From a virus, in the IMG/VR virus record IMGVR_UViG_3300044712_000998, positions 1 to 64,000 of that record: a DNA stretch of 64,000 nucleotides; one strand, 5' to 3'. The notes under the pieces were generated by a model. It saw only the letters and a program-made list of their open reading frames with translations, did no database searches and was not told the DNA's origin. Made by a program: the position numbers and the translations under genes. Positions 48,963 through 64,000 of this stretch are shown here, piece after piece (position 1 is the first letter of the stretch; every line of letters begins with the position of its first letter).

Positions 48963-49383
48963 CGACGGTGTCCCAGGGGAGCTTGGGCAACTCTGTTGTC
49001 GGCCACCCGCGTTCGCGGAGATCCTTCAACCGAGCCGCTAGTTTCGTCCTGTTCTCCTTGAGTACGGCGGCCCGTTCGGTCCGCAGGGTCGTTCTGAGCC
49101 TATTGAGCCAACCAGGCCTGAAGCCTGGCTTCGGGAACTCCTCCGGTGGGAGCTCGGAGAGCTGGGCATCGATGGCATCGAGCCTTTTCCCCAGGAACCC
49201 AACGTAGGCGTTGTAAAGAGCAGCCACGGCATGCCGGGGCTCCTTGGTGTCCACGACGACGTGACCAGCGTCTGGGATCTGAGCCGTGAATCGGTACTGG
49301 TCGTCCGCCGTCTTGCGCAGCATCCAGTACCCCAACAGCTTGTTTCGCTGCGTGTACTCCGGGATGCGAAGCAACTCACCCAT
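48523..49383 (-). CDS. Likely frameshift-affected upstream part of HTH protein
   Basis: The ATG at 49383 opens a frame to a stop at 48523. Only the first ~140 residues read like a real protein (ELLRIPEYTQRNKLLGYWML, then a helical Arg/Lys-rich region). Beyond residue ~141 the composition becomes Arg/Pro/Gly-rich, typical of a wrong frame over the 48351-48962 gene. Dropping one C in CTCCCCTGG (C4 at 48976-48979) makes the frame continue smoothly into that gene. Either a sequencing indel or a programmed shift would give a ~343-residue fused protein. Confidence 0.5.
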   Translation of the reverse strand: MGELLRIPEYTQRNKLLGYWMLRKTADDQYRFTAQIPDAGHVVVDTKEPRHAVAALYNAYVGFLGKRLDAIDAQLSELPPEEFPKPGFRPGWLNRLRTTLRTERAAVLKENRTKLAARLKDLRERGWPTTELPKLPWDTVDGTQAAQSAWVPRGPHREALPPGRPPAEPGRQDGGLRVLHRDGDPAPPGDPDPQEGSLRPARLGPPFVQADRGGAQRTRVRAHGWAPKVWGSRDQVWAEPGARPADRETPRGPNGTPDPSDDPDRPSSPGERGQGTGGTGQEGSPP

Positions 49384-49391
49384 GGCTGGAT

Positions 49392-49419
49392 AAGCTACCC
49401 CTCATCCCGGAGTTCGCAA
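49392..49419 (-). promoter_or_regulatory. Weak candidate promoter
   Basis: On the minus strand TTGCGA (49419-49414), the same hexamer as in the better candidate at 9037-9042, is followed after 16 bases by TAGCTT (49397-49392; three of six matches to TATAAT). It lies in a 45-bp gap before the ATG at 49383. If used, its transcript would start very close to that ATG, and no ribosome site is visible there. Confidence 0.25.
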
Positions 49420-49428
49420 TGACCGCTA

Positions 49429-51351: not shown

Positions 51352-51621
51352 CTAGGGCTTCTCGGGTCCCGTAACCAGGACGACATCCTTGGGGTCCACG
51401 TGAACCCGGATCGGTTTGGGCCCCTGGAGGATCACGGTGAGGGAGAGATGCGAGGTATCCACGACGACACCCCGGATCCCGTTCACGGTGACCTCCTTGT
51501 CGATGAAGTCTCGGCGGTTCCGGTAGGCGTCCAAAATGATCGAAGTGAGGAGGCCACACAGGGTGGCCACCAGGGCGGCAACGATGGCCACCATCGCAAT
51601 GTTCGTTTTCGTGGAAGACAT
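51352..51621 (-). CDS. Membrane-anchored small protein, 89 aa
   Basis: AAGGAG sits 6 bases before the ATG. A transmembrane helix occupies residues about 9-30 (MVAIVAALVATLCGLLTSIIL). A basic RNRRDF follows, and then a small beta domain with VTVNGIRGVVVDTS and IRVHVDPKDVV. The topology is probably N-in, with the beta domain periplasmic or, if inverted, cytoplasmic. Similar anchored beta domains occur at 55454-55777. Function unknown. Confidence 0.55.
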   Translation of the reverse strand: MSSTKTNIAMVAIVAALVATLCGLLTSIILDAYRNRRDFIDKEVTVNGIRGVVVDTSHLSLTVILQGPKPIRVHVDPKDVVLVTGPEKP

Positions 51622-51696
51622 GAGCTCCTTTCTGAGAAGCTATGGGTTCATATGAGCTAAGCTGATCGGGACACTCCGACGTCGAGATCCCCGAGG

Positions 51697-51714
51697 GGAC
51701 CCCCCGGGGGTTCC
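51697..51714 (-). other. GC-only inverted repeat after a stop codon
   Basis: Directly after the stop of the 51717-51980 gene there is a near-perfect inverted repeat (GGACCCCCC and GGGGGTTCC, one mismatch), adjacent to a CCCC/GGGG stem. No T-run follows, so it may be a processing or pausing structure rather than a classical terminator. It precedes the strong ribosome site of the 51352-51621 gene in a 95-bp gap. Confidence 0.35.
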
Positions 51715-51716
51715 GG

Positions 51717-51980
51717 CTAACCCGGCTTGCACCGCGCCACCCACATCGTGCGGGGGCACAGCGTGATCCCGTTTTCCAGGACCGGGTGACCCCGCCGGGA
51801 CATCCCGAGAACACGTAGAACAGCGAACCCGTACCCGAGGTCGACGCGGTCCCCGATCCGGAGGTCGAGCACCTGGACGGCCTCCTGGCCATCCTTCAGC
51901 ACGGGGCGTGGGGCCCGCTCGTTGCGATGCATGACGTCGTATTCACGCCTCGCCCTACGCCGCTGTTCGTTATTGGCCAT
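51717..51980 (-). CDS. Small basic protein, 87 aa
   Basis: GGAGGGG precedes the ATG. The N-terminal third is Arg-rich and helical (NEQRRRARREYDVMHRN), and the rest is a small beta domain (VDLGYGFAVLRVLGM) with Cys in the last strand. It could bind nucleic acid through the basic helix. It is the first gene of the small-gene region read from the left. No family recognised. Confidence 0.5.
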   Translation of the reverse strand: MANNEQRRRARREYDVMHRNERAPRPVLKDGQEAVQVLDLRIGDRVDLGYGFAVLRVLGMSRRGHPVLENGITLCPRTMWVARCKPG

Positions 51981-52004
51981 GACGCCCCTCCACCTGATGC
52001 GGGG

Positions 52005-52217
52005 TCACGTCGGTCTCCCCACTAACTCGGCGTCCCCGGGAACCGGGAGCCTGGGCACCACGGGATCCCGGTTCGCGTCGAAGCACTTCCGGCAGACCGG
52101 ATACCCGATCCAGGGGCCCGTCCAGTTGTCGGGCACCACGACGCTCTCATAGATCGGGATCCCGTGACGGAGATCGTGTAACTCGGTACCGCAAACGTAG
52201 CAGGTATCTGAGATCAT
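52005..52217 (-). CDS. CxxC zinc-knuckle microprotein, 70 aa
   Basis: Two CxxC pairs (Cys6/Cys9 and Cys42/Cys45) flank a beta-rich middle containing GIPIYESVVVP. This layout is a compact treble-clef or zinc-ribbon candidate. The start overlaps the upstream stop by four bases (ATGA). Many such microproteins occur in this part of the window. A regulatory role by nucleic-acid or protein binding is plausible. Confidence 0.55.
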   Translation of the reverse strand: MISDTCYVCGTELHDLRHGIPIYESVVVPDNWTGPWIGYPVCRKCFDANRDPVVPRLPVPGDAELVGRPT

Positions 52218-52528
52218 CGGTCCGGCTTGTCGGCTCGGTCCTGGGCCCGGTCGAGACGCTCGATCTCGGCGACCAGCATCGCGGTAGCCCTGAGGAGATC
52301 AGTTCGCCTCGTCTTCGGCTTCCAGAACGTCAACGACCACGGCCACGTCCTCGGGGCCGGGCAGTACGTCTCGCAGCCCTGGTTCAGTGCGTAACACGCG
52401 GCAGCATCGGCGAGTTCACCATAGGTGTGCTGGTCGTCGTGCTGCGTGGTGAACCCCCTCTCGATCTGCCTGAGGCGCTCACGGGCGACCTCCTGGAGAA
52501 CCGCTGCGGTTCTGGCGACATCATGCAT
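52214..52528 (-). CDS. HDDxH-type phage protein, 104 aa
   Basis: I choose ATG 52528 (MHDVARTAAVL), preceded by GGAGG at ideal spacing and overlapping the upstream gene by 8 bases. The sequence VARERLRQIERGF then HDDQHTYGELADAAACYAL matches a pattern I have seen repeatedly in phage and prophage genomes, where HDD-x-H is conserved. I do not know its function. The C-terminus is helical. Confidence 0.55.
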   Translation of the reverse strand: MHDVARTAAVLQEVARERLRQIERGFTTQHDDQHTYGELADAAACYALNQGCETYCPAPRTWPWSLTFWKPKTRRTDLLRATAMLVAEIERLDRAQDRADKPDR

Positions 52529-52811
52529 GTCGACCTCCTGGTTTCGTGTGTTTGGCGAGCGCAACGATCCCATCGGTATCGATGATGTCGCCCTCAGCGA
52601 TGAGCTGCCGCATCGCGATCGTCATCTGGCCGACATCGACGATGAGCTTATGTCGGAACCGGTACGTATTGATCATCGTCATGAGCAACGAGGTCCGCTT
52701 CTGGGGACCCTGCTTCTTCAGGATCTCCTTGGCGATCCGCCGGGATACCACCAGGTTGTCCACGGTCAGAGCTGACAGCGGTGCCTTCTTCGGTCTGAGA
52801 TGTGGCTTCAT
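52521..52811 (-). CDS. Small basic protein, possible winged helix, 96 aa
   Basis: A Lys/Arg-rich protein with helices such as VSRRIAKEILKKQG and LLMTMINTYRFRH, then TIAMRQLIAEGDIIDTDG, an arrangement like a short winged-helix. There is no visible ribosome site in the AT-rich leader, so efficiency is unclear. It is likely an early regulator or DNA-binding protein; confidence is low. Confidence 0.45.
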   Translation of the reverse strand: MKPHLRPKKAPLSALTVDNLVVSRRIAKEILKKQGPQKRTSLLMTMINTYRFRHKLIVDVGQMTIAMRQLIAEGDIIDTDGIVALAKHTKPGGRHA

Positions 52812-52821
52812 AATTATTCGA

Positions 52822-53151
52822 CTACGGTTTCAGCTGGTAAAGCTTTGCCCGGTTCTGGAAGCAGGCCGGGTTGGTCTCGCTGTGATCCACGATCCCGATA
52901 CCGTTGGGCTCCGTGCACGTACACGGGGCCTCCTTGAGGAGCTCCAAGCCTTCCTGCGCTATGGCTCTCGCGTTCCAGAGCTTCGCCAGGGCGGCCTCAA
53001 GGGTGGCCTGATCTGGCTGGTTCTCGACTTCGAACGTGGCCCCACAAACCACGCAGCCCAGGTTGCCGAACCATTTCCCGTCGTACGAGGAACAACAGCT
53101 CCCGACGTGCTCGGCGCCGCAGTACGGACACGGCTTGAGATCATCGCTCAT
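52822..53151 (-). CDS. Lar-like restriction-alleviation candidate
   Basis: I choose ATG 53151 (MSDDLKPCPYCGAEHVG) with GGAGG upstream; an ATG 12 bases earlier is less good. The 109-residue protein has KPCPYCG (Cys8, Cys11) followed by GCVVCGATFEVE and KLWNAR. This is the pattern of Lar-type restriction alleviation proteins: a zinc-binding CPFCG, a later CxxCG and WNxR. Lar proteins of prophages stimulate modification by, or blunt, type I restriction. The extra C-terminal Cys (CTCTE, PACF) is unusual. Confidence 0.6.
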   Translation of the reverse strand: MSDDLKPCPYCGAEHVGSCCSSYDGKWFGNLGCVVCGATFEVENQPDQATLEAALAKLWNARAIAQEGLELLKEAPCTCTEPNGIGIVDHSETNPACFQNRAKLYQLKP

Positions 53152-53327
53152 GTTTTCCTCCAATCTCCGATGAGGGCTTCGCAGTCGGCAAGGAAGATGC
53201 TGAGCTGCTCCGGGGTAAGACGCCCGGCCCGAGTTCCGGTTAGATCCCGTAGCGCAACCGCTAACAGGTTCTTGAGCCTTTGATTCTGTATGAGCAGTTC
53301 AGCTGGGGTCAGCTTGGGATCAGCCAT
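53148..53327 (-). CDS. Small helical protein, 59 aa
   Basis: I choose ATG 53327 (MADPKLTPAELL), which has GAGGT upstream and an 8-base overlap with the upstream gene; the longer frame is shadow. The protein is helical and Leu/Ala-rich, ending in EQLSIFLADCEALIGDW. Its stop overlaps the Lar-like start (ATGA). No family recognised. Confidence 0.5.
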   Translation of the reverse strand: MADPKLTPAELLIQNQRLKNLLAVALRDLTGTRAGRLTPEQLSIFLADCEALIGDWRKT

Positions 53328-53661
53328 CGGAGACCTCGATCTCAGCAGCTCTGATGGCACGCCTGCAGGCCTCGATCGCTGTGTTGTATCCAGCCTTGTA
53401 GTCGCCCCAGGTCGGCTTCCCGGATTCATCGACGAGCTTCGCAGGCAGCTCGACCTTCCTGGCCTTCAGAGCCGCGATCTCGGCGTCCTGCTTGTTGATG
53501 AGATCCTGCATGGCCCCGGAGTACGTCCCTGGTCCCGTCTTCGCCATGAAGTTGCTGGGCTCCACGGCGAAGACATGGGCGCCGCACTCCTCGCAGCAGT
53601 TCGAGGCATCGGGGCCCAGGGATACATGACCACCGCACTTCTCGCAGGTCGACAGGCTCAT
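53320..53661 (-). CDS. Zinc-ribbon protein with helical tail, 113 aa
   Basis: Residues 1-32 contain Cys6, Cys9, Cys22/23 and Cys26 (CEKCG, CCEECG), a zinc-ribbon candidate. Residues about 50-110 are a Lys/Ala-rich helix (INKQDAEIAALKARKVE). It overlaps its neighbours by 4 and 8 bases. The layout, ribbon plus coiled coil, recurs in the next gene. A regulatory or scaffold role is possible. Confidence 0.55.
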   Translation of the reverse strand: MSLSTCEKCGGHVSLGPDASNCCEECGAHVFAVEPSNFMAKTGPGTYSGAMQDLINKQDAEIAALKARKVELPAKLVDESGKPTWGDYKAGYNTAIEACRRAIRAAEIEVSDG

Positions 53662-54650
53662 ATGACCTCGTAACCCTGGCGACGCAGGGATTCCCGGAGC
53701 ACGTCGATGTAGTCGCTGTGAGACTCCATGCTGCGTTCCCAGTCCGGCAGCTTGATCTTGTGCTCCTTGAGCGCAGCCAGTTCGGCGCGCAAGGCGTTGT
53801 TCTCCAGGGTCGCATTACAGGCCTGTAAAGCAAACCCGGCGCCCTCTTTGTTTGCCGCGTCGGCGTCAGCTCGCACAGCGGCGAGTTCCTCTCGGGCCTG
53901 ATCCCGCTGTTTTGCGGCTTCCCTGGCGATGTTATCAGACTTCTCGCGATGGTTGCGCTCCTCGACCAGGGCATCCTGGAGCTGCTGGGCCAGCTCGGGG
54001 AGGTCGTGATGCGACCAGAGCCCGTTGGGAAGGGGACCACCATGCAACGCATTGGCCGTCCTGGTCAGCAGGTCGCCTTGCCGCATGATCAGCCTGACTT
54101 CCGCTTCGGACTCCGCGAGCTCGGCTCTGGCCTCGACGAGTTCAGCAGTCCTGGCATCACAGATCTCGACGAGCTCTTCGATACAGCTCTGCGGTTCCCG
54201 GCGATCCCAGTGACCTTCCCGGTAATCCTGGAGCTTGGCCTCCTTGGCTGAAGTCATGACAAGCCTGGCCTTGAGCGCTTCGAGCTCCGCGGTGATCCCG
54301 ATGGGCTCGATCTGGGACCCCATGGCGGCGACGTCGCAGCACTTCCCGCAGGTATCACTGCACAGCGACCAGGACCCATCGGGGTGCCGGACCCAGAGCG
54401 CCGCGCAGACCTTGCAGCGGTGCGTCGCCCTGGCCTCGCGCATCATCTTGAACCCGGCGCGTTCATCGGCGAGCTGCTTCTCGAGATCACCGATCATGGC
54501 TTCCCGACGCGCGATCATCTGGGGCGCACAGACCGGACACTGCCGGCTATCCATGCTCCCATCGGGACCACCTTGCCCGGTGTAGTCGTGCCCAGAACAA
54601 AACACGCATGACGGATCCCCAGATCGGAGTTCCGTGATCTTGTCAGTCAT
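53658..54650 (-). CDS. Zinc-finger plus long coiled-coil protein, 330 aa
   Basis: The N-terminal 110 residues hold many Cys (15, 18, 38, 41, 79, 82, 97, 101, 104 and 105) in CxxC groups, enough for two or three zinc sites. From about 120 to 300 the chain is a Leu/Glu/Arg/Ala-rich coiled coil (ELVEARAELAESEAEVRLIM), and the C-terminus is helical. It could organise other proteins or bind DNA. It overlaps its upstream neighbour by 8 bases. No known family. Confidence 0.55.
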   Translation of the reverse strand: MTDKITELRSGDPSCVFCSGHDYTGQGGPDGSMDSRQCPVCAPQMIARREAMIGDLEKQLADERAGFKMMREARATHRCKVCAALWVRHPDGSWSLCSDTCGKCCDVAAMGSQIEPIGITAELEALKARLVMTSAKEAKLQDYREGHWDRREPQSCIEELVEICDARTAELVEARAELAESEAEVRLIMRQGDLLTRTANALHGGPLPNGLWSHHDLPELAQQLQDALVEERNHREKSDNIAREAAKQRDQAREELAAVRADADAANKEGAGFALQACNATLENNALRAELAALKEHKIKLPDWERSMESHSDYIDVLRESLRRQGYEVI

Positions 54651-55044
54651 GACGACCTCCGTCGTTGTAGGCTTTCAGAGCTTTCTCGATCGCCGTAACG
54701 ATCCGGTTGCACTGCGGCTCCCCGGCGACCCCCATCATGACCAAGTAGACGTGGTCCGTGGGGACGTCCAGGAGCTTGGCAACCCTGCCACAGCTGTGCT
54801 CCTGCTTGGTCGGCCCACTCCACTTCTTGGCGACGCGAAGCTTGGGGAAGATGATCTTCAGCATCCGTTTGACCAGCTTGCAGCGCGCCTTGACGTAGGC
54901 GCGCCGGCTCCGTCGCGACTTGGGCAGCTCAGGCAGCGCAGGCTTGGCGTCATCGCGACTCGGACGCCTACGGGTCCCCGACTTCGTGAGCGCCTTGAGC
55001 GTGGTGTATTTCCCGTGCAGGATGCAATGTGAGCTTGAACTCAT
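54643..55044 (-). CDS. Basic protein, 133 aa
   Basis: A Lys/Arg-rich protein (SRRSRRAYVKARCK, RMLKIIFPKLRVAKKW) with a short beta element at the C-terminus (DHVYLVMMGVAG). No clear ribosome site precedes the ATG, which overlaps the upstream gene by four bases, so coupling is likely. It could bind nucleic acids. No family is recognised. Confidence 0.45.
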   Translation of the reverse strand: MSSSSHCILHGKYTTLKALTKSGTRRRPSRDDAKPALPELPKSRRSRRAYVKARCKLVKRMLKIIFPKLRVAKKWSGPTKQEHSCGRVAKLLDVPTDHVYLVMMGVAGEPQCNRIVTAIEKALKAYNDGGRHD

Positions 55045-55457
55045 GTGTCGATCTTCAGCCTAGGTAGCTCGGAGACCGCTGCAAGTTCACCCAGGTTGCG
55101 CTCATCGGGGTCCACCCCCAGCACCAGCCTGGGATGCGGGAGGATACCAGGCTCCCCGTACCTGAACAGGAACCTGCGGCCATCCTGGGTCTCAATGATG
55201 AAATCCACCAGGATGGGCCGCTTCATCCGTGGCGACTGCAGCCCTCTTGGTCTCTGTTCCTGACCAAAGATGCCATCGTAGCGGTGATCGATCTGGAACA
55301 TCGCCAAGAGCTGGTCCCGCCGGTTCAGCTCGACGAGCGCGACGCATGAGAACGCCAGGGCCACTGGGAACAGGTAGGGCCACATGTTGGTATACACGAA
55401 CAGGAGTCCGGCGAGGACCGGGTTCACCATGACGAGCCAGAGAATCGCGGTTCTCAT
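55041..55457 (-). CDS. Two-helix membrane protein with beta domain, 138 aa
   Basis: I choose ATG 55457 (MRTAILWLV), in an ATGA overlap with the upstream gene; the longer frame is shadow. Two transmembrane helices lie at about 3-21 and 24-43. The C-terminal 80 residues form a basic beta domain (PILVDFIIETQDG, LPRLKIDT). It belongs to a row of membrane-anchored small proteins. Possible host-membrane takeover or signalling role. Confidence 0.5.
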   Translation of the reverse strand: MRTAILWLVMVNPVLAGLLFVYTNMWPYLFPVALAFSCVALVELNRRDQLLAMFQIDHRYDGIFGQEQRPRGLQSPRMKRPILVDFIIETQDGRRFLFRYGEPGILPHPRLVLGVDPDERNLGELAAVSELPRLKIDT

Positions 55458-55777
55458 GGCTGCACTGCCGGGCCGTGCTGGTTCGCGACAGCCATCCATT
55501 CCACGTACACGGAATCCCCGTTCTGCAGGACGACCCTGGCACGCCCGGTCTCATAGAGCCCCTCGAAACCGGCCACGGTTCCCTTGGTATCACCGATCCG
55601 GAACAGCTTGCCCAGGTAGGCCTTCTTCCAGACGTTGGGATCCTGAACCGGCTTGGCCGGTTCAACGGAATCCAGCCTGGCGTGGGCCTCGAGATTCATG
55701 ATCCAGGCGTGGATCAGGACCCCGGTAATGCCGCCCGCGAACAGCAGGATAACCGACATAGTTAAACGATCTTTCAT
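55454..55777 (-). CDS. Membrane-anchored beta-domain protein, 107 aa
   Basis: I choose ATG 55777 (MKDRLTMSVI) because AAGGA lies 7 bases upstream and the start then overlaps the previous stop by one base; an ATG nine bases earlier lacks room for a site. One transmembrane helix (about 7-24) precedes a beta domain (GKLFRIGDTKGTVAGFEG, VVLQNGDSVYVEW). The layout resembles the protein at 51352-51621. Function unknown. Confidence 0.5.
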   Translation of the reverse strand: MKDRLTMSVILLFAGGITGVLIHAWIMNLEAHARLDSVEPAKPVQDPNVWKKAYLGKLFRIGDTKGTVAGFEGLYETGRARVVLQNGDSVYVEWMAVANQHGPAVQP

Positions 55778-56049
55778 CAGGTCCATCCTTTCGCATCGAA
55801 GATGTGGAACACGAGCCCGTTCGGTAGATCGACAGAGCAGATATAGACGCCAAGGGAATCCGGGATCGGGTGCCCGGTGCCGCGGATCCAGTAGATGTGC
55901 TTCGTGGTCTCTTTCTCAGCGGGATCCACGACAGCCCACAGGAAGATCTCGTTACCCTGGCATCCGAACCTGATGACCTGAGCTCCCCTGGGGAGCTCGA
56001 CAACCGAGGTGTCATCGATAGGCACCCGGTACTTGTAAACAGTTCTCAT
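55777..56049 (-). CDS. Small beta-rich protein, 90 aa
   Basis: GAGGA precedes the ATG. The protein is mostly beta with aromatic residues (VYKYRVPIDDTSVVELP, KHIYWIRGTG), ending in LVFHIFDAKGW. It resembles the protein encoded just upstream (56046-56324) in size and style, perhaps by ancient duplication. No family or motif is identified. Confidence 0.5.
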   Translation of the reverse strand: MRTVYKYRVPIDDTSVVELPRGAQVIRFGCQGNEIFLWAVVDPAEKETTKHIYWIRGTGHPIPDSLGVYICSVDLPNGLVFHIFDAKGWT

Positions 56050-56324
56050 TGATGTCCTCGTTTCGACAGGAAGAAGTAGTACCTAAGACCACCTGTCAGC
56101 ATCACGGAGTTCACGAATGCCCCCAGGGGTTCGTCGGTGAAGCCACCCTGTACGACCACATAGAACCGGTGATTTATAACTGGTGCGTTCATGTCGACGA
56201 GCGCTGCTAACTGGACGTTGTCCCATTGATCGATGATGAACTCCAGCACCTTGGCGCCTTCTGGCATCAAGATATCGCAGGTCGGGCCGTAGTTTGCTTG
56301 GTACAGTATGACGGTCGCCGACAC
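56046..56324 (-). CDS. Small beta-rich protein, 92 aa
   Basis: GTG start with GGAGG upstream; the start overlaps the previous stop as TAGTG. The protein has alternating hydrophobic strands (ATVILYQANYGPTCDILMP, NHRFYVVVQGG) and a basic end. Its similar size and style to the next gene suggests relatedness, but identity is too low to judge by eye. Function unknown. Confidence 0.5.
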   Translation of the reverse strand: MSATVILYQANYGPTCDILMPEGAKVLEFIIDQWDNVQLAALVDMNAPVINHRFYVVVQGGFTDEPLGAFVNSVMLTGGLRYYFFLSKRGHQ

Positions 56325-56722
56325 TACGCCCTCCAGGCCACCGACATCGTCTTCTGGGCCAAAGCGATCATCTTCTTGAACTCCTTAAGGTGCCGCGCCG
56401 GGTACAGGAAGATCACGTGGACCTCGTAGCCGGGCCGGCAGGGCTCCACGTCGAGCTCCAGTTTCCCCTTCCACTGCAGGATCTCGGTGCAACCCCTGAC
56501 CATCTGGTCCAGGGTGAGCTCCGACATCGTTTCGTGGTACCCGAGGTAGAGCCGCTTCGACTTGGAGTCCTGCCCCACGGTGACGTAGGAGGCATTGACT
56601 AACTTGGTCGCGTCGTCGTAGAGCTTGCTGACCCGGGCACCAAGGCGTCCGTCAACGAAGCATTCACCCTCGTTGTGCAGGACGACGTATTCCTCGAGAT
56701 CAGAGCGAATCATGTTGGGCAC
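56324..56722 (-). CDS. Hypothetical protein, 132 aa
   Basis: GTG start at 56722, directly after the upstream stop, with GGAGG 8 bases before it; an internal ATG at 56713 is spaced too far. The protein is mixed alpha/beta with LEEYVVLHNEGECFVDG near the N-terminus, a middle helix and a basic C-terminus. No family is recognised. It belongs to the run of small co-translated genes. Confidence 0.5.
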   Translation of the reverse strand: MPNMIRSDLEEYVVLHNEGECFVDGRLGARVSKLYDDATKLVNASYVTVGQDSKSKRLYLGYHETMSELTLDQMVRGCTEILQWKGKLELDVEPCRPGYEVHVIFLYPARHLKEFKKMIALAQKTMSVAWRA

Positions 56723-57118
56723 CTAGTTGGCCTCCTTTTTGGCTTTCTTCTCGGCCTCGTAGCGGGCCGCGGAGTCCCTGAACTCCTTGATCGCAGGTTC
56801 CCCAGCCTTCTTGAATAGCTCGATGCACTCCATGGCTTCCGCGGTTCCCCTGGTTTCGGACCCAGTCGAGGTACCGATGCCAACCATGCCAGCTGTGGGA
56901 CGGGGCCCACCCAGGAACGCCAGGGGGTCATTGAAGAACACGAAATGGAACTTGGTCCCAGCGACGGTATCCTTTTCGAGCGGGTAGATCCAGATCCCCT
57001 CGACTTCACCATCAGCGTGACGCAGGTTGATCTTGCAGAGCTTCTTGGAGGCACTCATGGCCTCGTATTCCTTCTCGAAGACGTAGCCCCGAGCAATGAT
57101 GTCCGCCGCGTTGACCAT
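56723..57118 (-). CDS. Hypothetical protein, 131 aa
   Basis: GGAGG precedes the ATG. The N-terminal half is beta-rich (CKINLRHADGEVEGIWIYP), then a Gly/Pro-rich segment (LGGPRPTAGMVGIGTSTG) and a Lys-rich helical C-terminus (AARYEAEKKAKKEAN). It has no motif that I can assign. The composition suggests a soluble cytoplasmic protein. Confidence 0.5.
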   Translation of the reverse strand: MVNAADIIARGYVFEKEYEAMSASKKLCKINLRHADGEVEGIWIYPLEKDTVAGTKFHFVFFNDPLAFLGGPRPTAGMVGIGTSTGSETRGTAEAMECIELFKKAGEPAIKEFRDSAARYEAEKKAKKEAN

Positions 57119-57133
57119 ATGGCCTCCCTGTTG

Positions 57134-57274
57134 TTAGCTGCACCCCTTCAAGATGTAGCCGATGATGATCATGATGACAACGAACTCGAACGCCCTCTCC
57201 ATGCAGCCGTCGTCGCCTCCTCCACCACCGCCACCACCTCGGTGATGGTAGTGGTGGTGATGGTGGGTAGCCAT
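57134..57274 (-). CDS. His/Gly-rich membrane microprotein, 46 aa
   Basis: ATG at 57274, sharing one base with the upstream stop (TGATG). The N-terminus has seven His within nine residues (THHHHHYHH), then Arg and eight Gly, then DDGC and a transmembrane helix (about 29-42, FEFVVIMIIIGYIL) with a Cys near the end. His-rich tracts can bind nickel, zinc or copper. The His and Gly codons are complementary, so the DNA forms an imperfect hairpin (about 57215-57271). Very unusual for a phage; function unknown. Confidence 0.5.
   Translation of the reverse strand: MATHHHHHYHHRGGGGGGGGDDGCMERAFEFVVIMIIIGYILKGCS
57215..57271. repeat. Inverted triplet-rich tract coding poly-His and poly-Gly
   Basis: CCACC-type repeats on the left and GGTGG-type repeats on the right are imperfect complements and could form a hairpin in DNA or mRNA. 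On the minus strand the first arm encodes the His run and the second the Gly run. Triplet-like purity suggests expansion or an inverted duplication by polymerase slippage. Confidence 0.5.
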
Positions 57275-57534
57275 CAGCGACGCTTCTTCTTCTTGGTCTT
57301 CACCCCGAGACACCGAGCGCTGTACGACTTCGCACTGCTCCCATCTCTTGTGATCCCGGCACCACTGATCGAAAAGCTGGTGTGAGCAATCTCGTTCATG
57401 AGGTACTCGCGGTGTTCGGGGACCGCGTACGTGATCCGAAACGTCATCGGAACCACGACGATCTCTGTCTTCGTGGCTGGATCCCGCAGCGACGCCCGGA
57501 ACGCTCTGTTCCCTGGGTTCCCACGAGAAGTCAT
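57274..57534 (-). CDS. Small basic protein, 86 aa
   Basis: A Ser/Arg/Lys-rich protein with a beta middle (KTEIVVVPMTFRITYAVP) and a very basic end (KTKKKKRR). It overlaps its upstream neighbour by four bases. Candidate nucleic-acid-binding protein; the basic tail could bind DNA or RNA. No family recognised. Confidence 0.45.
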   Translation of the reverse strand: MTSRGNPGNRAFRASLRDPATKTEIVVVPMTFRITYAVPEHREYLMNEIAHTSFSISGAGITRDGSSAKSYSARCLGVKTKKKKRR

Positions 57535-57770
57535 GTGGCCTCCGGCTTGAGCTTCTTGAGGACCTCCTGAATGGACTTCCGATCGACGATCCCCTGCAGT
57601 ACCTCAATATCGATATACCGCCCTGATTTCATAGCTAACGCGTAAGCGGCGGCATCGTTGCTCTCGGCCCGACGTACCGCGGTCTCAGAGGCCTGAACAA
57701 CGAACAGGTTATCGGCAGCCACCACGGTTCCCGTGGTGACATCGATAACGCAGAGAACCTTCTTGCTCAT
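57531..57770 (-). CDS. Hypothetical protein, 79 aa
   Basis: An alpha/beta protein: VLCVIDVTTGTVVAADN forms strands, followed by Ala/Glu-rich helices. ATGA overlaps occur at both ends. It carries no motif. Soluble and cytoplasmic by composition. Confidence 0.45.
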   Translation of the reverse strand: MSKKVLCVIDVTTGTVVAADNLFVVQASETAVRRAESNDAAAYALAMKSGRYIDIEVLQGIVDRKSIQEVLKKLKPEAT

Positions 57771-58108
57771 GCCTTCTTCCAGGCTGTCTTCTCTTTGTTC
57801 AGGAACTCCACGATCTGGATACGATAGAGCTCCCTGGGGACCTTGTAGCTCCGAGGAGCGAGGTCCCAGCGGAGCCCGTTGTTGTCCCAGCCCGCCTTGA
57901 CGAAGACCTTGTCGAGCGTCTGGAGACCAGGCTTGACCCCGTAGCCGTAGGCATCTAGGAGCGCGAGCCCAGCGATGAAGTGGTCCAAGGCTTCACGGGC
58001 ATGCCTGACGGAGTCCCGCATGTCGAGACCTTCGAACGCGTTGATCGTGACCAGCAAGGACTTCAGGCCGCCTTCGACCAGCGACCTCGTCAGCTTCTCG
58101 GGGGTCAT
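57767..58108 (-). CDS. Hypothetical helical protein, 113 aa
   Basis: A mostly helical protein (LVEGGLKSLLVTINAFEGL, ARHAREAL-type, LLDAYGYG) with an aromatic/basic C-terminal part (WDLAPRSYKVPREL). It overlaps both neighbours by four bases. I recognise no domain. It belongs to the small early-type gene series. Confidence 0.5.
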   Translation of the reverse strand: MTPEKLTRSLVEGGLKSLLVTINAFEGLDMRDSVRHAREALDHFIAGLALLDAYGYGVKPGLQTLDKVFVKAGWDNNGLRWDLAPRSYKVPRELYRIQIVEFLNKEKTAWKKA

Positions 58109-58383
58109 GGCTTCGTCAGCTCGACGAGTTCAAGCCCGACGGCCCCGTTCTTGAACGATCTCCGATCCGCTGCGGTCACCTTCTTGCGGGCCATATTGAA
58201 CTCTGGCAGATCGTCGTTGACGATATCCGGTTCATGGTCTTCGGCGAGATGATGCCGCTCGAACAGATGCAGGATGTCGTCTTCGCTTGCCTCAGGGTGT
58301 ACCTCGACAAGGAAGAACCGGTTCTCCACTCGCTTCTGTTCGATCCAGATCAACTTGCCTTTCGGCTTCTTGGGTTTCGCCAT
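58105..58383 (-). CDS. Small basic/acidic protein, 92 aa
   Basis: GGAGG precedes the ATG. A Lys-rich N-terminus (MAKPKKPKGKLIW) leads into a beta strand region, then acidic and helical segments (EDDILHLFERHHLAEDH) and a basic end. No motif beyond a His-containing helix. Function unknown. Confidence 0.5.
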   Translation of the reverse strand: MAKPKKPKGKLIWIEQKRVENRFFLVEVHPEASEDDILHLFERHHLAEDHEPDIVNDDLPEFNMARKKVTAADRRSFKNGAVGLELVELTKP

Positions 58384-58392
58384 ATGGGCCTC

Positions 58393-58647
58393 CTATCTAT
58401 CTCGCACTTTAACGGTTATCACGATCTCGGTTTCACCACGGACGCGGTGAACAGAACTCAGCGGGGCGCAGTCATCACAGAGATTACCGGGGCCGCAGGT
58501 CTCCCCGTGCCCCATGGTGCGCCTGCAGCCAGCGGGGTTCCCCTCCGGCGGCCTGTAATCTCGACCACAGGCGTCGCAAAGGTGTCCAGGACAGCAGGTC
58601 TCCCCGTGCCCCAGAGTACGGCCACAACCCTCTGGTCGTAAGCTCAT
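58393..58647 (-). CDS. Tandem zinc-finger microprotein (internal duplication)
   Basis: An 84-residue protein in which the same zinc motif appears twice: Cys8, His14, Cys18/19, Cys24, Cys27 and then Cys41, His47, Cys51, Cys57, Cys60, each with a shared GHGET and PGxLCDxC. This is a clear internal duplication. Each unit could bind one zinc ion and contact DNA, RNA or protein. AAGGA precedes the ATG. It overlaps its downstream neighbour's start by four bases. Confidence 0.6.
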   Translation of the reverse strand: MSLRPEGCGRTLGHGETCCPGHLCDACGRDYRPPEGNPAGCRRTMGHGETCGPGNLCDDCAPLSSVHRVRGETEIVITVKVRDR

Positions 58648-58895
58648 GCGGTGTCCTTCCCGAAGTAGTGCAGGGCAGCCTGCAGGTTTGAAAACGGTGA
58701 CGCGATCCGGTTGACCTTGTAGAGCCCTCCAGACCAGCCGTTGCGATCGGCAAAGATAGGCCCGGCCCCAGCTACGTATATCTCCAAGGCGACATCGGTT
58801 CGCTGCATCTGTTCCTCAGGGGTCCCCGGCTTGAGCTCTTTCCCAGGCATGGCGACAACGGTGACCTGGTGGCCTCGGAACTGGGCTACCGGCAT
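58644..58895 (-). CDS. Hypothetical protein, 83 aa
   Basis: I choose ATG 58895 (MPVAQFRGHQV), with a GGGGC-type weak ribosome site and a 10-base overlap with the upstream gene. The protein is mixed alpha/beta with a Gly/Trp-rich middle (DRNGWSGGLYKVNRI). No family recognised. Confidence 0.45.
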   Translation of the reverse strand: MPVAQFRGHQVTVVAMPGKELKPGTPEEQMQRTDVALEIYVAGAGPIFADRNGWSGGLYKVNRIASPFSNLQAALHYFGKDTA

Positions 58896-59131
58896 CGCCG
58901 CCCCAGCTTCAGCTTGGGGTACGCCGTGGTGCCCAGCTTGGGCTTCCTGTACAGCTTCAGGATCTCGGCGTCGACGTACTCGATCTCGTCCTGGGACCAT
59001 TCATAGTCGGGGTCATAGCAGCCCCGGTCCGGATCCCAGTACAGGATATCGAGGATGTTCTGGATCACGGGCTCCACCTTGGCCTTGAAGGCCCGGAGCT
59101 CCTTGAGCTCGATCTCCTCAGCTTCGGTCAT
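58886..59131 (-). CDS. Hypothetical acidic protein, 81 aa
   Basis: An acidic N-terminal helix (EAEEIELKELRAFKAKVEP) is followed by a Tyr/Asp-rich segment (DPDRGCYDPDYEW) and a basic tail. The composition suggests a DNA-mimic or protein-binding microprotein but nothing specific. Its end overlaps the next gene by 10 bases. Confidence 0.45.
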   Translation of the reverse strand: MTEAEEIELKELRAFKAKVEPVIQNILDILYWDPDRGCYDPDYEWSQDEIEYVDAEILKLYRKPKLGTTAYPKLKLGRRCR

Positions 59132-59286
59132 GTGTCCTTCCTAGGCCTGTCGCGTAACCGGACGGCCTGCTTGTACGTGATGTTCTGGGCCCCATTGGGC
59201 AGCCGCTTCGGCCAGCGCTGCAGCACCGAGATATTGCTACAGGCAATGATCACGACGTCGCCGTGCTTCGTGATCCGACAGGTCAT
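59128..59286 (-). CDS. Small protein, 52 aa
   Basis: I choose ATG 59286 (MTCRITKHGDVV), which overlaps the upstream stop by four bases and has GGAG 8 bases upstream. A short beta protein (DVVIIACSNISVL) with a Lys/Arg-rich end. Unknown; kept because of the coupling and ribosome site. Confidence 0.4.
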   Translation of the reverse strand: MTCRITKHGDVVIIACSNISVLQRWPKRLPNGAQNITYKQAVRLRDRPRKDT

Positions 59287-59477
59287 CCGAGGAGCTCCAG
59301 AGCAGCTGCCATGCGGCGCCGGTAGTCGTGCTTCCACTCCTCGGGGATCTCATCCCACCCTCTGGTGGCGATACGCTTACCACCCACGTCAGGGCAGTCC
59401 CACCAGCGACGGCACGCCGCCTCGATCTTGGCCCGGTTGTCGTTCGGGCAGTGGTTCTCGGGTTCCGGGTTAGCCAT
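59283..59477 (-). CDS. Small hypothetical protein, 64 aa
   Basis: GAGGCGAA precedes the ATG. The protein contains two Cys, several Trp (RRWWDCP) and an Arg-rich C-terminus. No domain is recognised. It overlaps the next gene by four bases. Confidence 0.45.
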   Translation of the reverse strand: MANPEPENHCPNDNRAKIEAACRRWWDCPDVGGKRIATRGWDEIPEEWKHDYRRRMAAALELLG

Positions 59478-59495
59478 TTCGCCTCGCTTTCTGTG

Positions 59496-59681
59496 TTAGT
59501 CGGTATTGAAGCCGAGCCAGAGATCCCGAAGCCGTTGCCCCTGCAGGATCTCCGGGAACTTCTTGGCTAATCTGACCATGTCTTCCCGCTCCGCTACGGA
59601 ACCGTGTCTCCACCGGAGCCACTGGTTCCGTAGCGGAGCGAAGATATCGAGATCTCTGGCAGGAGCCGGGGCTCGGTCCAT
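59496..59681 (-). CDS. Small helical protein containing an inverted repeat, 61 aa
   Basis: AAGG precedes the ATG. The protein is helical and Arg/Leu-rich (LRNQWLRWRHGSVAERE). The coding sequence holds a perfect 17-bp inverted repeat (59587-59640), which would fold the mRNA into a strong stem. Either the protein or the structure, or both, may be functional. No family recognised. Confidence 0.45.
   Translation of the reverse strand: MDRAPAPARDLDIFAPLRNQWLRWRHGSVAEREDMVRLAKKFPEILQGQRLRDLWLGFNTD
59587..59640. repeat. Perfect 17-bp inverted repeat
   Basis: Arms at 59587-59603 (CGCTCCGCTACGGAACC) and 59624-59640 (GGTTCCGTAGCGGAGCG) are exact reverse complements separated by 20 bases. This is by far the strongest hairpin I see in the window and it lies inside a small gene. 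No T-run follows on either strand, so a terminator is unlikely. Candidate uses: RNA processing site, protein-binding stem or recombination target. Confidence 0.6.
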
Positions 59682-59687
59682 GGTGCC

Positions 59688-60278
59688 TTACGTGTAGACC
59701 TCGATATGCTGGCTGGCCTCGACGAGCTCCTCCGAGGTAAACCCGATCAGGGCCGCGACGAGCTCAGTCACGGAGTTCTTCTGGCACCCCCAGTCACCCT
59801 TCGCGAACGCCTTGACCACGGCGACGCGATCCACGGTCCTGGGCTCCGCGATCTTCCTCTTGAGCTCGTCCTGCATCTTGACCCGCTTCTCCGCGAGACC
59901 GTCCGAGATGTCCTTGATGCCCTCGATGTGCTCGAACAGGGCGTATACCACCTTGGTCTGATCGACCAGGTTCCAGTCCCTGCCGCATGGCCAGTTCCTG
60001 TCAGTGATCGACGGCTTCCCGACGATGGCTGACGCAATCTGGAGCCGGTGACTACCGACCCCGATGTCATCCCAGATCTTCCGGTTATAGCTACCGCCAT
60101 CCCGATGCTTCAGGAACACCGACTTGTCGTCGTCGACCGTCACGGTGTAGACGTGGGTGACGCCTTCACGGATCTGGAATCCGAACAACTTGATCTCCGA
60201 TCTGACGTCGAAAATGACGGCGTCGCCCTTGGCGAGCACGTTGGAGCCGAGCTCCTTGGAGTTCCGGTAGACGGGCAC
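59688..60278 (-). CDS. Hypothetical protein with GCQ module, paralogous to 63129-63611
   Basis: A 196-residue protein. Its C-terminal part (VVKAFAKGDWGCQKNSVTEL) matches the C-terminus of the protein at 63129-63611 (EFFRKNNFGCQNGAAQSL), and both have a conserved KGD/HGD-V-x-F start and an RD-W/Y segment after a Trp-Pro. This supports a divergent duplicated family. It could be a small regulatory or DNA-binding protein. No name is known to me. Confidence 0.5.
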   Translation of the reverse strand: MPVYRNSKELGSNVLAKGDAVIFDVRSEIKLFGFQIREGVTHVYTVTVDDDKSVFLKHRDGGSYNRKIWDDIGVGSHRLQIASAIVGKPSITDRNWPCGRDWNLVDQTKVVYALFEHIEGIKDISDGLAEKRVKMQDELKRKIAEPRTVDRVAVVKAFAKGDWGCQKNSVTELVAALIGFTSEELVEASQHIEVYT

Positions 60279-60280
60279 AG

Positions 60281-60481
60281 TTACCTCTTCTGTTTTAGTT
60301 GTTTGATGTCCTTGACGAGCTGTTCGATCACCTGAGCAGCGGTTTCCAGAAGTACCCGGTCAGCGGCCTGGATCCCAGTGTTGTTCTTCATGAACCGCAG
60401 TGCACCGGGAACAGCTTCGACGCGAATACTGACGGCCTCGAGCTGTTCGGAACCGTCAGGGTTGCCGTCGGGAGTACTCAC
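60281..60481 (-). CDS. Small helical protein, 66 aa
   Basis: GTG start at 60481 with GGAGG five bases upstream; the start overlaps the upstream stop as GTGA. The chain has an acidic beginning and a Leu/Ala/Lys-rich helix (AADRVLLETAAQVIEQLVKD) ending QKR. Likely a coiled-coil partner. No family recognised. Confidence 0.45.
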   Translation of the reverse strand: MSTPDGNPDGSEQLEAVSIRVEAVPGALRFMKNNTGIQAADRVLLETAAQVIEQLVKDIKQLKQKR

Positions 60482-60654
60482 TGGTCCTCCTTGATCTGGA
60501 AATATGGCATCTTCTGAAACGTCAGCGCTTCAGGGAGATGCGTCCAAAAGGTGGCCCGGTTAGCCAGTGGATTCCTGAACTGCCAGGCGATCCCAGCCAC
60601 AACGACATACATGAGAACTGGGATCAGTACCCCTAGAACGAGAATAGATTTCAT
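60478..60654 (-). CDS. Single-helix membrane microprotein, 58 aa
   Basis: I choose ATG 60654 (MKSILVLGV), which overlaps the upstream stop by four bases (ATGA); an in-frame ATG at 60672 would overlap more. A transmembrane helix occupies residues 3-24 (SILVLGVLIPVLMYVVVAGI), followed by an aromatic/basic tail. One of several anchored microproteins here. Confidence 0.5.
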   Translation of the reverse strand: MKSILVLGVLIPVLMYVVVAGIAWQFRNPLANRATFWTHLPEALTFQKMPYFQIKEDQ

Positions 60655-61655
60655 GCGGTCTCCCCGACCCACTCAATGTGGGTATAGATGCCACGTTCAT
60701 CTTCACGGCAGAGGTGGTAGCGGTGAGTGAACCGATAACGACCTGGCTTGCACTTCACGACGTCGACATCCATGTGGGGACGATCCTTCATCATGGCTTC
60801 GAGACCGTTCTTCAGCGCTAGCTGCCTATCCGTGATGCCGTAGCCCCAGAAGTCGGTGCAGACGTTGGCGACCGGCTTGCGGCCCCTGACACAGTCCGAG
60901 GCCCCCATGACGAACTTGGTGCCTGCTTTGTTCATCTGGTACATCCGGCACGAGCAGTTCCCGATGTTCATCTCGATGTAGCCCTGCTTGGCGTACTCCT
61001 CGGTGCAGTTCTTACGGCCCCACAGGAAGTTGATGCTCTTCTCCGCCGAGTACCGATCTTTGATCTCATCAAACAGCGAGCTGAAGTGGTTGGCCACTAC
61101 CATCTCACCGCTTGGGATGTTGATCTCAACGCTGTACGGCAGCTTCGGGTCGATGGGACACTCATCCAACTCGACGTGACGGAAGTCCTTCAGTGACCCA
61201 GGGTGCTGGTACTGCAGCGGCTTCAGGGTGTTCCCCTTCATCTCGATGATGCTACTGGACTCACCACAGGCCCAGCACCGCAGCACTTCGCAGCCGATCA
61301 GCTCGATCGTCTCGCCGGCCTTGTGCTTGTCGATCAGCTCCTGGACAACCGGTGGCTGCATGACCCAGAGCCTTCCGACCATCGCGTGGACAATGGATTC
61401 CACGAGATGCTCGTGGTACCACTTCTCCTTGGAGTCACTCATCCCATGCTTGTGGGCCGCGATGACTTTGAACTGTCCGAGGCCCATGATGTAAGGCTTG
61501 AGGAGAGCTTCACAGGCGTCGTATCGAGCACTGAACCAGGCCTGCGCCTCCTTTTCATTGGCAGGCCGGGTGGCACGGTCAGCCTGGCAGAGCAGGTTCC
61601 GTTCTTCGGTCGTGAGATTCACCCAGTTCTCAATGTTTGGGAGTACGGCTGTCAT
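60651..61655 (-). CDS. Hypothetical protein, 334 aa, with Cys pairs
   Basis: I choose ATG 61655 (MTAVLPNIENWV), preceded by GGAGGAT; the longer open frame is Arg/Ser-rich shadow. The protein has several Cys in spaced pairs (CEVLRCWACG, NCSCRM) that could bind zinc, and a His/Glu-rich middle (HKHGMSDSKEKWYHEH). The C-terminus is beta-rich. I recognise no family; it is the largest gene in the right-hand region apart from those at 49.4 and 53.7 kb. Confidence 0.5.
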   Translation of the reverse strand: MTAVLPNIENWVNLTTEERNLLCQADRATRPANEKEAQAWFSARYDACEALLKPYIMGLGQFKVIAAHKHGMSDSKEKWYHEHLVESIVHAMVGRLWVMQPPVVQELIDKHKAGETIELIGCEVLRCWACGESSSIIEMKGNTLKPLQYQHPGSLKDFRHVELDECPIDPKLPYSVEINIPSGEMVVANHFSSLFDEIKDRYSAEKSINFLWGRKNCTEEYAKQGYIEMNIGNCSCRMYQMNKAGTKFVMGASDCVRGRKPVANVCTDFWGYGITDRQLALKNGLEAMMKDRPHMDVDVVKCKPGRYRFTHRYHLCREDERGIYTHIEWVGETA

Positions 61656-61689
61656 GGAGTATCCTCCGATGTTGTGGTGATAGACGGGT

Positions 61690-62280
61690 TCATGACATCC
61701 TGATGACCTGGCGACCCAGGCACTTCCCGTTGAGGACCACCGCGTAACCCGCGGTGCCGCTGAGGAACCTGATGTCATCGTACCAGTAGAGCGTCGCCAT
61801 GGGGTTCTTGTCGAGGAGCTCCAGGATCTTGGGATCCGTGCGTCCCTTGAGGTACTCCTCACGGGTGATCTTCGTGGATCTCCCCTGAACACCGGGATGC
61901 AGCTTACCCTGGCGCTCCCAGGCTGCGATACGGTCGTGCTCAGCGATCTCCTCGGGAGTGGGCTCCCGGTACACCAGCATGGGCTCCGGTACTCCGGCTG
62001 CTTGCATAAAGGAGTTCTCCTCGGCGGTCAGGATGGCTCTGAGATCCGCTGTCGGGAAGCCGCCAGCGATCTTAGGCATCTGGATCCGGTCGAACCGGAT
62101 CTCATACCTCGGCGGCTGAGCCGCCCAGGGATACCTGATGAAGATGGCATTGGCTACATGAGCCCAGTGCTTGCGACGCCAGAACGAACCGGGCCCATGG
62201 AGAGCCCGGTTCCTGGCATGCCTGTACTTACCGTACAGCCTGGCGTGAAGGCCGTACTCGATACCTGCGGTAGTCTTCAT
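61690..62280 (-). CDS. Hypothetical protein, 196 aa
   Basis: GGAGG precedes the ATG. The N-terminal 55 residues are Arg/His/Tyr-rich (GLHARLYGKYRHARNRAL, WRRKHWAHVANAIFI). A middle alpha/beta part is followed by a C-terminal strand region (MATLYWYDDIRFLSGTAG). No motif points to a function. Possibly a nucleic-acid or membrane-associated protein by its basic start. Confidence 0.5.
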   Translation of the reverse strand: MKTTAGIEYGLHARLYGKYRHARNRALHGPGSFWRRKHWAHVANAIFIRYPWAAQPPRYEIRFDRIQMPKIAGGFPTADLRAILTAEENSFMQAAGVPEPMLVYREPTPEEIAEHDRIAAWERQGKLHPGVQGRSTKITREEYLKGRTDPKILELLDKNPMATLYWYDDIRFLSGTAGYAVVLNGKCLGRQVIRMS

Positions 62281-62522
62281 GGGCCTCCTTTAGCTCGGGC
62301 TTCAACTTCAGCGATGATGAGCATCGCCACGGAGTACCTCTCCAGGAGCTCCCCGTACGTCAGGGGCTCTCCTGTGGCTGGATCCCTACAACAGAACTCA
62401 TTGGGGCTATGGTCGCCACCGTGTGGGCGCGGCGCCATAGCCTTGATGAGTTCCCGTTGAAACGCTATCGCTGGATCAGTTCCCGGTGGCCACGGGAGTG
62501 CAGGCATCGGCTTGTCTGGCAC
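62277..62522 (-). CDS. Small protein, 81 aa
   Basis: I choose GTG 62522, which has GAGGAGG four bases upstream; an in-frame ATG at 62507 has no site. The protein has a Pro-rich beginning, a central Cys pair (EFCCRDPATGEPL) and a helical end. It overlaps the upstream gene by 47 bases. Family unknown. Confidence 0.4.
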   Translation of the reverse strand: MPDKPMPALPWPPGTDPAIAFQRELIKAMAPRPHGGDHSPNEFCCRDPATGEPLTYGELLERYSVAMLIIAEVEARAKGGP

Positions 62523-62754
62523 GCGGCCTCCTCGGGGGACGGAAGGTGACCCGCTTGATGAGCCGCTGCTTGAGATGCTCCAGGGCTCCGATGATCGCTT
62601 CAGCCGGAGTCGCAGCGCTGCAGTGCCTCCCACCACGGTAGTTATCGGCCTTGTGCTTGGGATACGTTACCGTGCATCGCCATTCCTCACGGCCAGGCAG
62701 CTTGCGGACCCGAACCGTGATCCGGTCGCGCCAGTGGCTTACAGCCGCTGACAT
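62476..62754 (-). CDS. Small basic protein, 92 aa
   Basis: An Arg/Lys/Trp-rich protein (SHWRDRITVRVRKLPGREEW) with beta strands and an Ala-rich helix, ending basic. It overlaps the downstream and upstream genes (47 and 16 bases). The start has no strong ribosome site. Candidate DNA-binding microprotein. Confidence 0.4.
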   Translation of the reverse strand: MSAAVSHWRDRITVRVRKLPGREEWRCTVTYPKHKADNYRGGRHCSAATPAEAIIGALEHLKQRLIKRVTFRPPRRPRARQADACTPVATGN

Positions 62755-62930
62755 GCTGGGAGCTCGTTGTACTGCCGCCTGAGCTCTTCGTAACGCTGTT
62801 TGAGCTCGTCGTGCACCTTGTCGGCACGGTCCAAGGCCTCGAAGGCTTCCTTGGCGTGGACGTGCTCGCAGTCCTTCCCGCGAGGCCAGATCTTCAACAT
62901 GGCCTCGCGGGCCTCTTGTATCGCGTTCAT
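62739..62930 (-). CDS. Small helical protein, 63 aa
   Basis: I choose ATG 62930 (MNAIQEAREAML), with GGAGG upstream and an ATGA overlap with the upstream gene; the longer frame is shadow. The protein is a Glu/Arg/Leu-rich helix (RADKVHDELKQRYEELRRQ). Probably a coiled coil. No family recognised. Confidence 0.45.
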   Translation of the reverse strand: MNAIQEAREAMLKIWPRGKDCEHVHAKEAFEALDRADKVHDELKQRYEELRRQYNELPACQRL

Positions 62931-63127
62931 GCGTCGTCCTCCTTCCTGTGCTCCAGCTTGAACCGAACCGGTACGGCCGCGATGATATCCTTGACGATGA
63001 TGATGTGGCCGCACCTCGGACAGATCACGGTAACGGTTCCCTGGATGACGACGCCACAGGCGACGTCGACACCGATGTCCTCGGTGTACTTGCAGGTCTG
63101 GCAGTCGAACTTCAGGAGGACGTTCAT
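62927..63127 (-). CDS. Zinc-ribbon microprotein, 66 aa
   Basis: I choose ATG 63127 (MNVLLKFDCQTC); only a weak AGGT precedes it. Cys9/Cys12 and Cys36/Cys39 (CQTC, CPRCGH) form a likely zinc ribbon, followed by a basic end. This is one of at least seven zinc microproteins between 51 and 64 kb. Ribbons like this often bind RNA polymerase or nucleic acid. Confidence 0.55.
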   Translation of the reverse strand: MNVLLKFDCQTCKYTEDIGVDVACGVVIQGTVTVICPRCGHIIIVKDIIAAVPVRFKLEHRKEDDA

Positions 63128-63128
63128 G

Positions 63129-63611
63129 TTACCTGGCCGATCTGGTCTCCGGCAGGATACTGGTGATCTTGACGGAGCAACCGAAGTAGGCCTCCATGAG
63201 GCTCTGTGCCGCCCCGTTCTGGCACCCGAAGTTGTTCTTCCTGAAGAACTCGACGACCTCGGCAAAACGAGCCGGGAGCTTGCGCCTCCGGCAGTACTCC
63301 TTCGTAGTCGGACGAGCGTTGTGCTTCTTGATCTTGTCGAACAGGAGCCTGACAAGCCTGGTCAACGCCGCGTAGTCCCGGTTGTGCGACCCCGGCCAGC
63401 CCGATGAGTCATCCGTGTAGTACCCATAAGCTTCCTGTGCAATCGCACCACGGCCGAGCTTCAGCATATCGAATATCTTGCAGTTCGGTCCGTACGGGTT
63501 CTCGAGGTGCTCGGTACAGACTCGGTACTGGACCTCCTGTCCGTCCACGATGAACTTGACCAGGTCACCATGCTTCAGCGTACGCCTCGGAGCGGCGCAG
63601 TACGTGGCCAT
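63129..63611 (-). CDS. Hypothetical protein with GCQ module, 160 aa
   Basis: I choose ATG 63611 (MATYCAAPRRTL), sharing a base with the upstream stop (TAATG). It starts with LKHGDLVKFIVDGQEV and ends with a domain containing NNFGCQNGAAQSL, matching the protein at 59688-60278 (DWGCQKNSVTEL). A Lys/Arg-rich section lies between. Divergent paralogues in one accessory region suggest duplication and diversification. Function unknown. Confidence 0.5.
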   Translation of the reverse strand: MATYCAAPRRTLKHGDLVKFIVDGQEVQYRVCTEHLENPYGPNCKIFDMLKLGRGAIAQEAYGYYTDDSSGWPGSHNRDYAALTRLVRLLFDKIKKHNARPTTKEYCRRRKLPARFAEVVEFFRKNNFGCQNGAAQSLMEAYFGCSVKITSILPETRSAR

Positions 63612-64000
63612 TAGTCGGACTCCGTCAACGCGGAGCCGAACGGGTTCCTGGCGTTCCACTCGTTGTCGGTTTCCTGGATTCGATCCCGGACGTTCTCGAT
63701 GACCGACTTGATCTCGGCAACCGTGGCGGGGCGCCAGGCGCCCTCCGTATCGCCGAGGCTGTTGCCTGGGTTGAACTCGCCATCGGAGTCAACCCGGTAG
63801 CCCTGATCATCGGAGTTACCCGACATGAAGACAACCTCGTTGAGATCGTAGTCGTGATCGTTGTTACACTCCAGGGGGACCACGGCGACGCCGAGGGCCC
63901 AGCGACCAGCCTTCGAGAAGAACCCTGGGATCGGAGCGGCTCTGGCCTCCGAGCTGCCGCCGTCCTTGTCGATCATGTCGACGATCTCAGGCTTCCCGAG
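63611..64000 (-). CDS. Hypothetical protein, possibly continuing past the right edge
   Basis: The frame contains ATG 63976 (MIDKDGGSSEA) but is open to the window edge, so the true start may lie outside. The protein is acidic and Asn/Asp/Gly-rich (CNNDHDYDLNEVVFMSGN). No family recognised. The stop overlaps the downstream gene's start. Confidence 0.4.
   Translation of the reverse strand, partial: LGKPEIVDMIDKDGGSSEARAAPIPGFFSKAGRWALGVAVVPLECNNDHDYDLNEVVFMSGNSDDQGYRVDSDGEFNPGNSLGDTEGAWRPATVAEIKSVIENVRDRIQETDNEWNARNPFGSALTESD

Follow-up and report, generated by a model that had tools for sequence, protein, structure and literature searches.

A perfect 17-bp inverted repeat between leftward genes of a large uncultured phage: a candidate cis-acting RNA hairpin

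The window analyzed here, a stretch of 64,000 nucleotides, spans positions 1 to 64,000 of a virus record with 191,518 bases (IMG/VR record IMGVR_UViG_3300044712_000998, hereafter G000). The last 127 bases of the record repeat the first 127 (a match common to record G001) and the genome map is therefore circular. Over window positions 1-47919, G001, a second IMG/VR record, matches G000 at 99.996% identity, its end falling exactly at window position 1. Relatives of the portal protein are found in large tailed phages, Vibrio phage D69 and Salmonella phage Arash among them (24% identity), and in IMG/VR contigs at 53-66% identity. One of the 13 tRNA genes of G000 has the anticodon CTA, which reads amber TAG (minus strand, 119699-119771; L006 15699-15771); despite this tRNA, TAG ends 43 of the 238 called genes. 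Promoter-like sequences of the form TTGAC-N16..18-TACGRT occur at L007 6748-6776 (plus strand), L007 9985-10012 (plus strand) and L009 4208-4235 (minus strand), two of the three preceding gene starts, at 130783 and 168201, in the common context ACCACTACG.

From genome position 70000 back to window positions 49000-64000, about 20 kb are occupied by tightly packed small leftward genes. This 49-70 kb stretch has no gene in common with the portal-related phages compared, whereas most other parts of the genome have some. All genes around the inverted repeat point leftward. Two confidently called minus-strand genes with no function assigned, one of 196 amino acids upstream (59688-60278) and one of 64 amino acids downstream with a GAGG ribosome site (59283-59477), enclose a 210-bp interval (59478-59687, minus strand) that holds a hairpin and, across it, a 61-codon minus-strand open reading frame (ORF; 59496-59681). 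The search of viral, genome, phage and plasmid collections returned no homologue or family for the ORF and no relative of its neighbors or of the two-armed hairpin, so the locus offers no covariation. A single-arm match in IMG/VR (L019) has no pairing partner beside it and was dismissed as chance. The nearby AAA-ATPase gene (64250-65422) has 428 relatives, none of which is syntenic with the hairpin stretch.

The arms of the repeat, at 59587-59603 and 59624-59640, match exactly over 17 bp and are separated by a 20-nt loop, precisely as the earlier note described them. The same note had called this the strongest hairpin in the 64 kb, and it does rank first in the window both by perfect arm length and by local folding energy; in the whole 191.5-kb genome it ranks third in a scan of raw energies. 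The next longest perfect inverted repeat in the window is 12 bp, and the longest arm across 60 second-order Markov shuffles of the window is 15 bp. Analytically, a hairpin whose arms reach 17 bp or more around a loop of 3-40 nt is expected 2.9e-4 times per 64 kb. The hairpin is real and not a product of chance.

The stem reaches beyond the perfect arms. Outer pairs between ATGTCTTC and GAAGATAT, together with inner GTG/CAC and CTCC/GGAG pairs, bring it to about 31 pairs (59578-59647) if small bulges are allowed for, with the minus strand as the expected transcript. The 17-bp perfect core sits within a longer palindrome, an imperfect one, in which 48 of 55 bases are self-complementary. The 70-nt segment folds at -49.4 kcal/mol on the plus strand and -47.0 kcal/mol on the minus strand, compared with shuffles near -20; one G-U pair gives the outer stem a slight pairing advantage on the plus strand. 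This folding is isolated: outside the hairpin, the remaining interval is unremarkable relative to shuffles (z about -0.9). A wider three-way junction built on an outer 14-nt helix (59516-59529/59647-59660) was considered and rejected, as the interval minus the hairpin folds like shuffled sequence. Searching the window with Rfam 15 covariance models gave zero matches above the gathering score, and a permissive search gave sub-threshold generic hairpin models only, such as mir-228.

Perfect dyad symmetry on both strands could instead serve a DNA-level element, such as an operator, a recombination site or a replication origin, the last two having been put forward in the earlier note. We consider this improbable. 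Arms of 17 bp around a 20-bp spacer are unlike common operators. The hairpin is single-copy: in the genome, only the two arms themselves match, together with one site carrying three mismatches, and no site with both arms that could act as a recombination partner occurs in the viral or genome collections. Nor does the locus resemble an origin, with no iteron-type cluster of direct repeats, no AT-rich stretch (AT fraction 0.34-0.42) and no GC-skew extremum at the hairpin (minimum at 106022, maximum at 186676). Cluster O mycobacteriophages likewise carry dyad-symmetric elements in and between their genes, the 17-bp dyad repeats (PMC4351075), but these have 7-bp arms and more than 30 near-identical copies, whereas the present element has 17-bp arms and a single copy.

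The ORF that spans the hairpin had been described as a small coding gene with a ribosome site. The 61-codon frame is indeed there, but the supposed ribosome site is no more than a weak AAGG, and that the hairpin lies in a coding gene is unproven, since the hairpin segment has non-coding-like codons. The codons outside the hairpin are coding-like, with an amino-acid density ratio of 13-15 in favor, and this holds especially for codons 33-61 (ratio 15), a score reached by only about 1% of wrong-frame stretches. Conversely, codons 14-32, which form the hairpin segment, look non-coding (real/wrong density ratio 0.06), and the arm codons CTA and GTA are rare, accounting for 0.6% and 3.9% of their families. 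The codon score of the whole ORF falls below that of all 28 confident small genes used for comparison. A fit between neighbors as tight as this one arises in 6% of random 210-bp gaps. The AlphaFold2 single-sequence model of the ORF is helical (pLDDT 67.4, pTM 0.40), and the control, an antisense ORF of the same locus, is poor (pLDDT 45.6, pTM 0.14). Reading TAG as Q yields no better minus-strand ORF. A possible origin of the 3' part as a duplicated gene piece was set aside since the 32-nt match to 189169-189138, although in the same frame, is too weak (E = 0.008). We put the chance that the ORF is translated at about even. Mitochondrial genes of Nematomorpha also contain coding palindromes, perfect inverted repeats within what looks like a reading frame (PMC6649704). 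The two arms there code for conserved, tested proteins, in contrast to the orphan protein and the non-coding-like arms of the present case.

The coding-like features of the ORF bear on the main rival explanation, in which the ORF is a true gene, small and orphan, whose perfect hairpin was left by template switching during replication (quasi-palindrome correction), the palindrome itself being functionless. A single template-switching event can create a perfect stem, and a 17-bp perfect core within a longer imperfect palindrome is the trace expected of it (PMC8794818). The snug fit of the ORF, the composition of codons 33-61 and the helical model beside its poor antisense control all speak for a real gene; the low whole-ORF codon score and the lack of any homologue speak against one. 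We regard this explanation as rather unlikely, and return to it with the hairpin census below.

Another reading is at the level of translation, with the stem concealing the point at which a peptide of 27 residues would start. In the 3' arm, a GGAG precedes an internal ATG (59579) by nine bases, with GGAGCGGGAAGACATG at the stem end on the minus strand, and no part of the ORF is more coding-like than codons 33-61. But a product of 27 residues would be unusually short, and chance alone often supplies an internal start codon preceded by GGAG. Such translation control seems very improbable.

The position of the hairpin suggests a different role. The perfect stem begins 47 nt after the stop codon of the 196-amino-acid gene and ends 109 nt before the next confident gene. 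According to a survey covering 13 bacterial genomes, 98% of hairpin termination sites lie within 80 nt of a stop codon, and most hairpin termination takes place without an adjacent U-run, which is not needed (PMC8355165). As in intrinsic (Rho-independent) terminators, a strong G+C-rich hairpin is found here soon after a stop codon and between genes of the same direction. Unlike them, it has a stem about three times the usual length, stops 109 nt short of the next confident gene, may sit within an ORF, and is followed by no U-run on either strand: the absence of a T-run, observed in the earlier note, holds for both the minus-strand tail GGAAGACATGGT and the plus-strand tail AAGATATCGAGA. A classical U-tailed terminator is thereby rejected, and a terminator scan did not detect the hairpin at 59578-59647.

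RNase III processing hairpins in the early messages of phage T7 have long stems and do not need a U-run. What the present hairpin has in common with them is a long, double-stranded stem, its place within a polycistronic phage message, and the dispensable U-run; in its predicted fold at least about 20 RNA pairs would be near-continuous, enough for an RNase III site. It differs in having no sequence relative, and cleavage here is putative.

To place the hairpin among others of its kind, we counted perfect hairpins whose arms reach 13 bp or more, long-loop cases included, in G000 and four relatives (859 kb). The 84 kb of gaps between genes contain 23 and the 776 kb of confident genes contain 4, a density about 53 times higher in the gaps; at arms of at least 16 bp, the counts are 11 and 1. 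The present hairpin is counted as a gap hairpin, its ORF lying below the confidence cut, and without it the gap counts become 22 and 10. Most of the other strong hairpins of G000 lie 7-50 nt after a stop codon. Some gap hairpins are T-tailed and look like ordinary terminators (125422, 165264 and 130184). Others have no T-tail, namely those at 72113 and 169294 in G000, at 123804, at 106465 in G004 and at 171367 in G008. The hairpin studied here thus looks like one among several gene-boundary hairpins that are common, and ordinary, in this virus group.

Individual members of this set merit description. At genome positions 72036-72147 (L004 8036-8147), tandem hairpins follow a stop codon, both without a T-run, one of them having a 16-bp perfect stem and a 3-nt loop. 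In G006 (68761-68827; L043 8761-8827) and G008 (170286-170349; L059 10286-10349), orthologous hairpins of 23-24 bp carry a T-run on the gene-sense strand and have kept perfect pairing through a compensatory change from T-A to C-G; these are extremely long terminator-like stems. One case is truly intragenic, a 15-bp perfect hairpin at 133108-133149 of G004 (L028 13108-13149) inside a conserved 489-amino-acid gene homologous to genome positions 97204-98694 (54% identity).

The census bears on two of the alternatives. For template switching in a small real gene, the G004 case demonstrates that a perfect hairpin of 15 bp can exist in a real gene of this group, but hairpins as long as the present one are about 100-fold rarer inside genes than in gaps. 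An assembly artefact, in the form of a false inverted copy, would be compatible with a locus known from a single record, G001 ending at window position 47919. Against it, hairpins of the same kind recur across five independent assemblies, and the arms, short and interrupted by bulges and mismatches outside the perfect core, are unlike long exact chimeric copies. We judge an artefact to be highly improbable.

Of the options listed in the earlier note, an RNA-level hairpin, for processing or for ending the message, fits best, since many such hairpins mark gene boundaries here and in the related phages, several of them without T-tails; the recombination site and replication origin do not hold up. 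Our preferred explanation, held tentatively and at somewhat less than an even chance, is a single cis-acting RNA hairpin in a leftward polycistronic transcript that marks where a message ends or is processed and that may lie in a small orphan gene. Besides the concentration of such hairpins in gaps, the compensatory change in G006 and G008 and the non-coding-like codons of the hairpin segment speak for it. A hairpin of about 31 pairs would form in the minus-strand transcript just after the end of gene 60278-59688 and would act as RNA, as an element that forms or processes 3' ends. It could be either a U-less terminator or a double-stranded stretch that an RNase III-type enzyme cuts, two possibilities equally compatible with the data, and would in either case separate the expression of the genes on its two sides. 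Counting against such an RNA element are the tidy ORF that spans the hairpin, its non-hairpin part being protein-like and helical in the AlphaFold2 model, the expectation that a translating ribosome would open the stem, the absence of covariation at a locus that has no homologue, and the slightly better outer-stem pairing on the plus strand.

In a further reading, a single phage gene would be under selection on two levels, for a near-perfect RNA hairpin of 31 pairs within its reading frame and for the small helical protein that it encodes. The message would then be cut or stopped inside the gene and the protein made only from the uncut message. We consider this a long shot; if true, the dual-selected gene would be a built-in expression switch.

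As one gene-boundary hairpin, the element carries little weight alone. Taken as a set, the long T-less hairpins common to these large uncultured phages suggest that messages are ended or cut in a manner missed by standard terminator scans, and they advise caution, since short ORFs predicted over gaps like these may be spurious.
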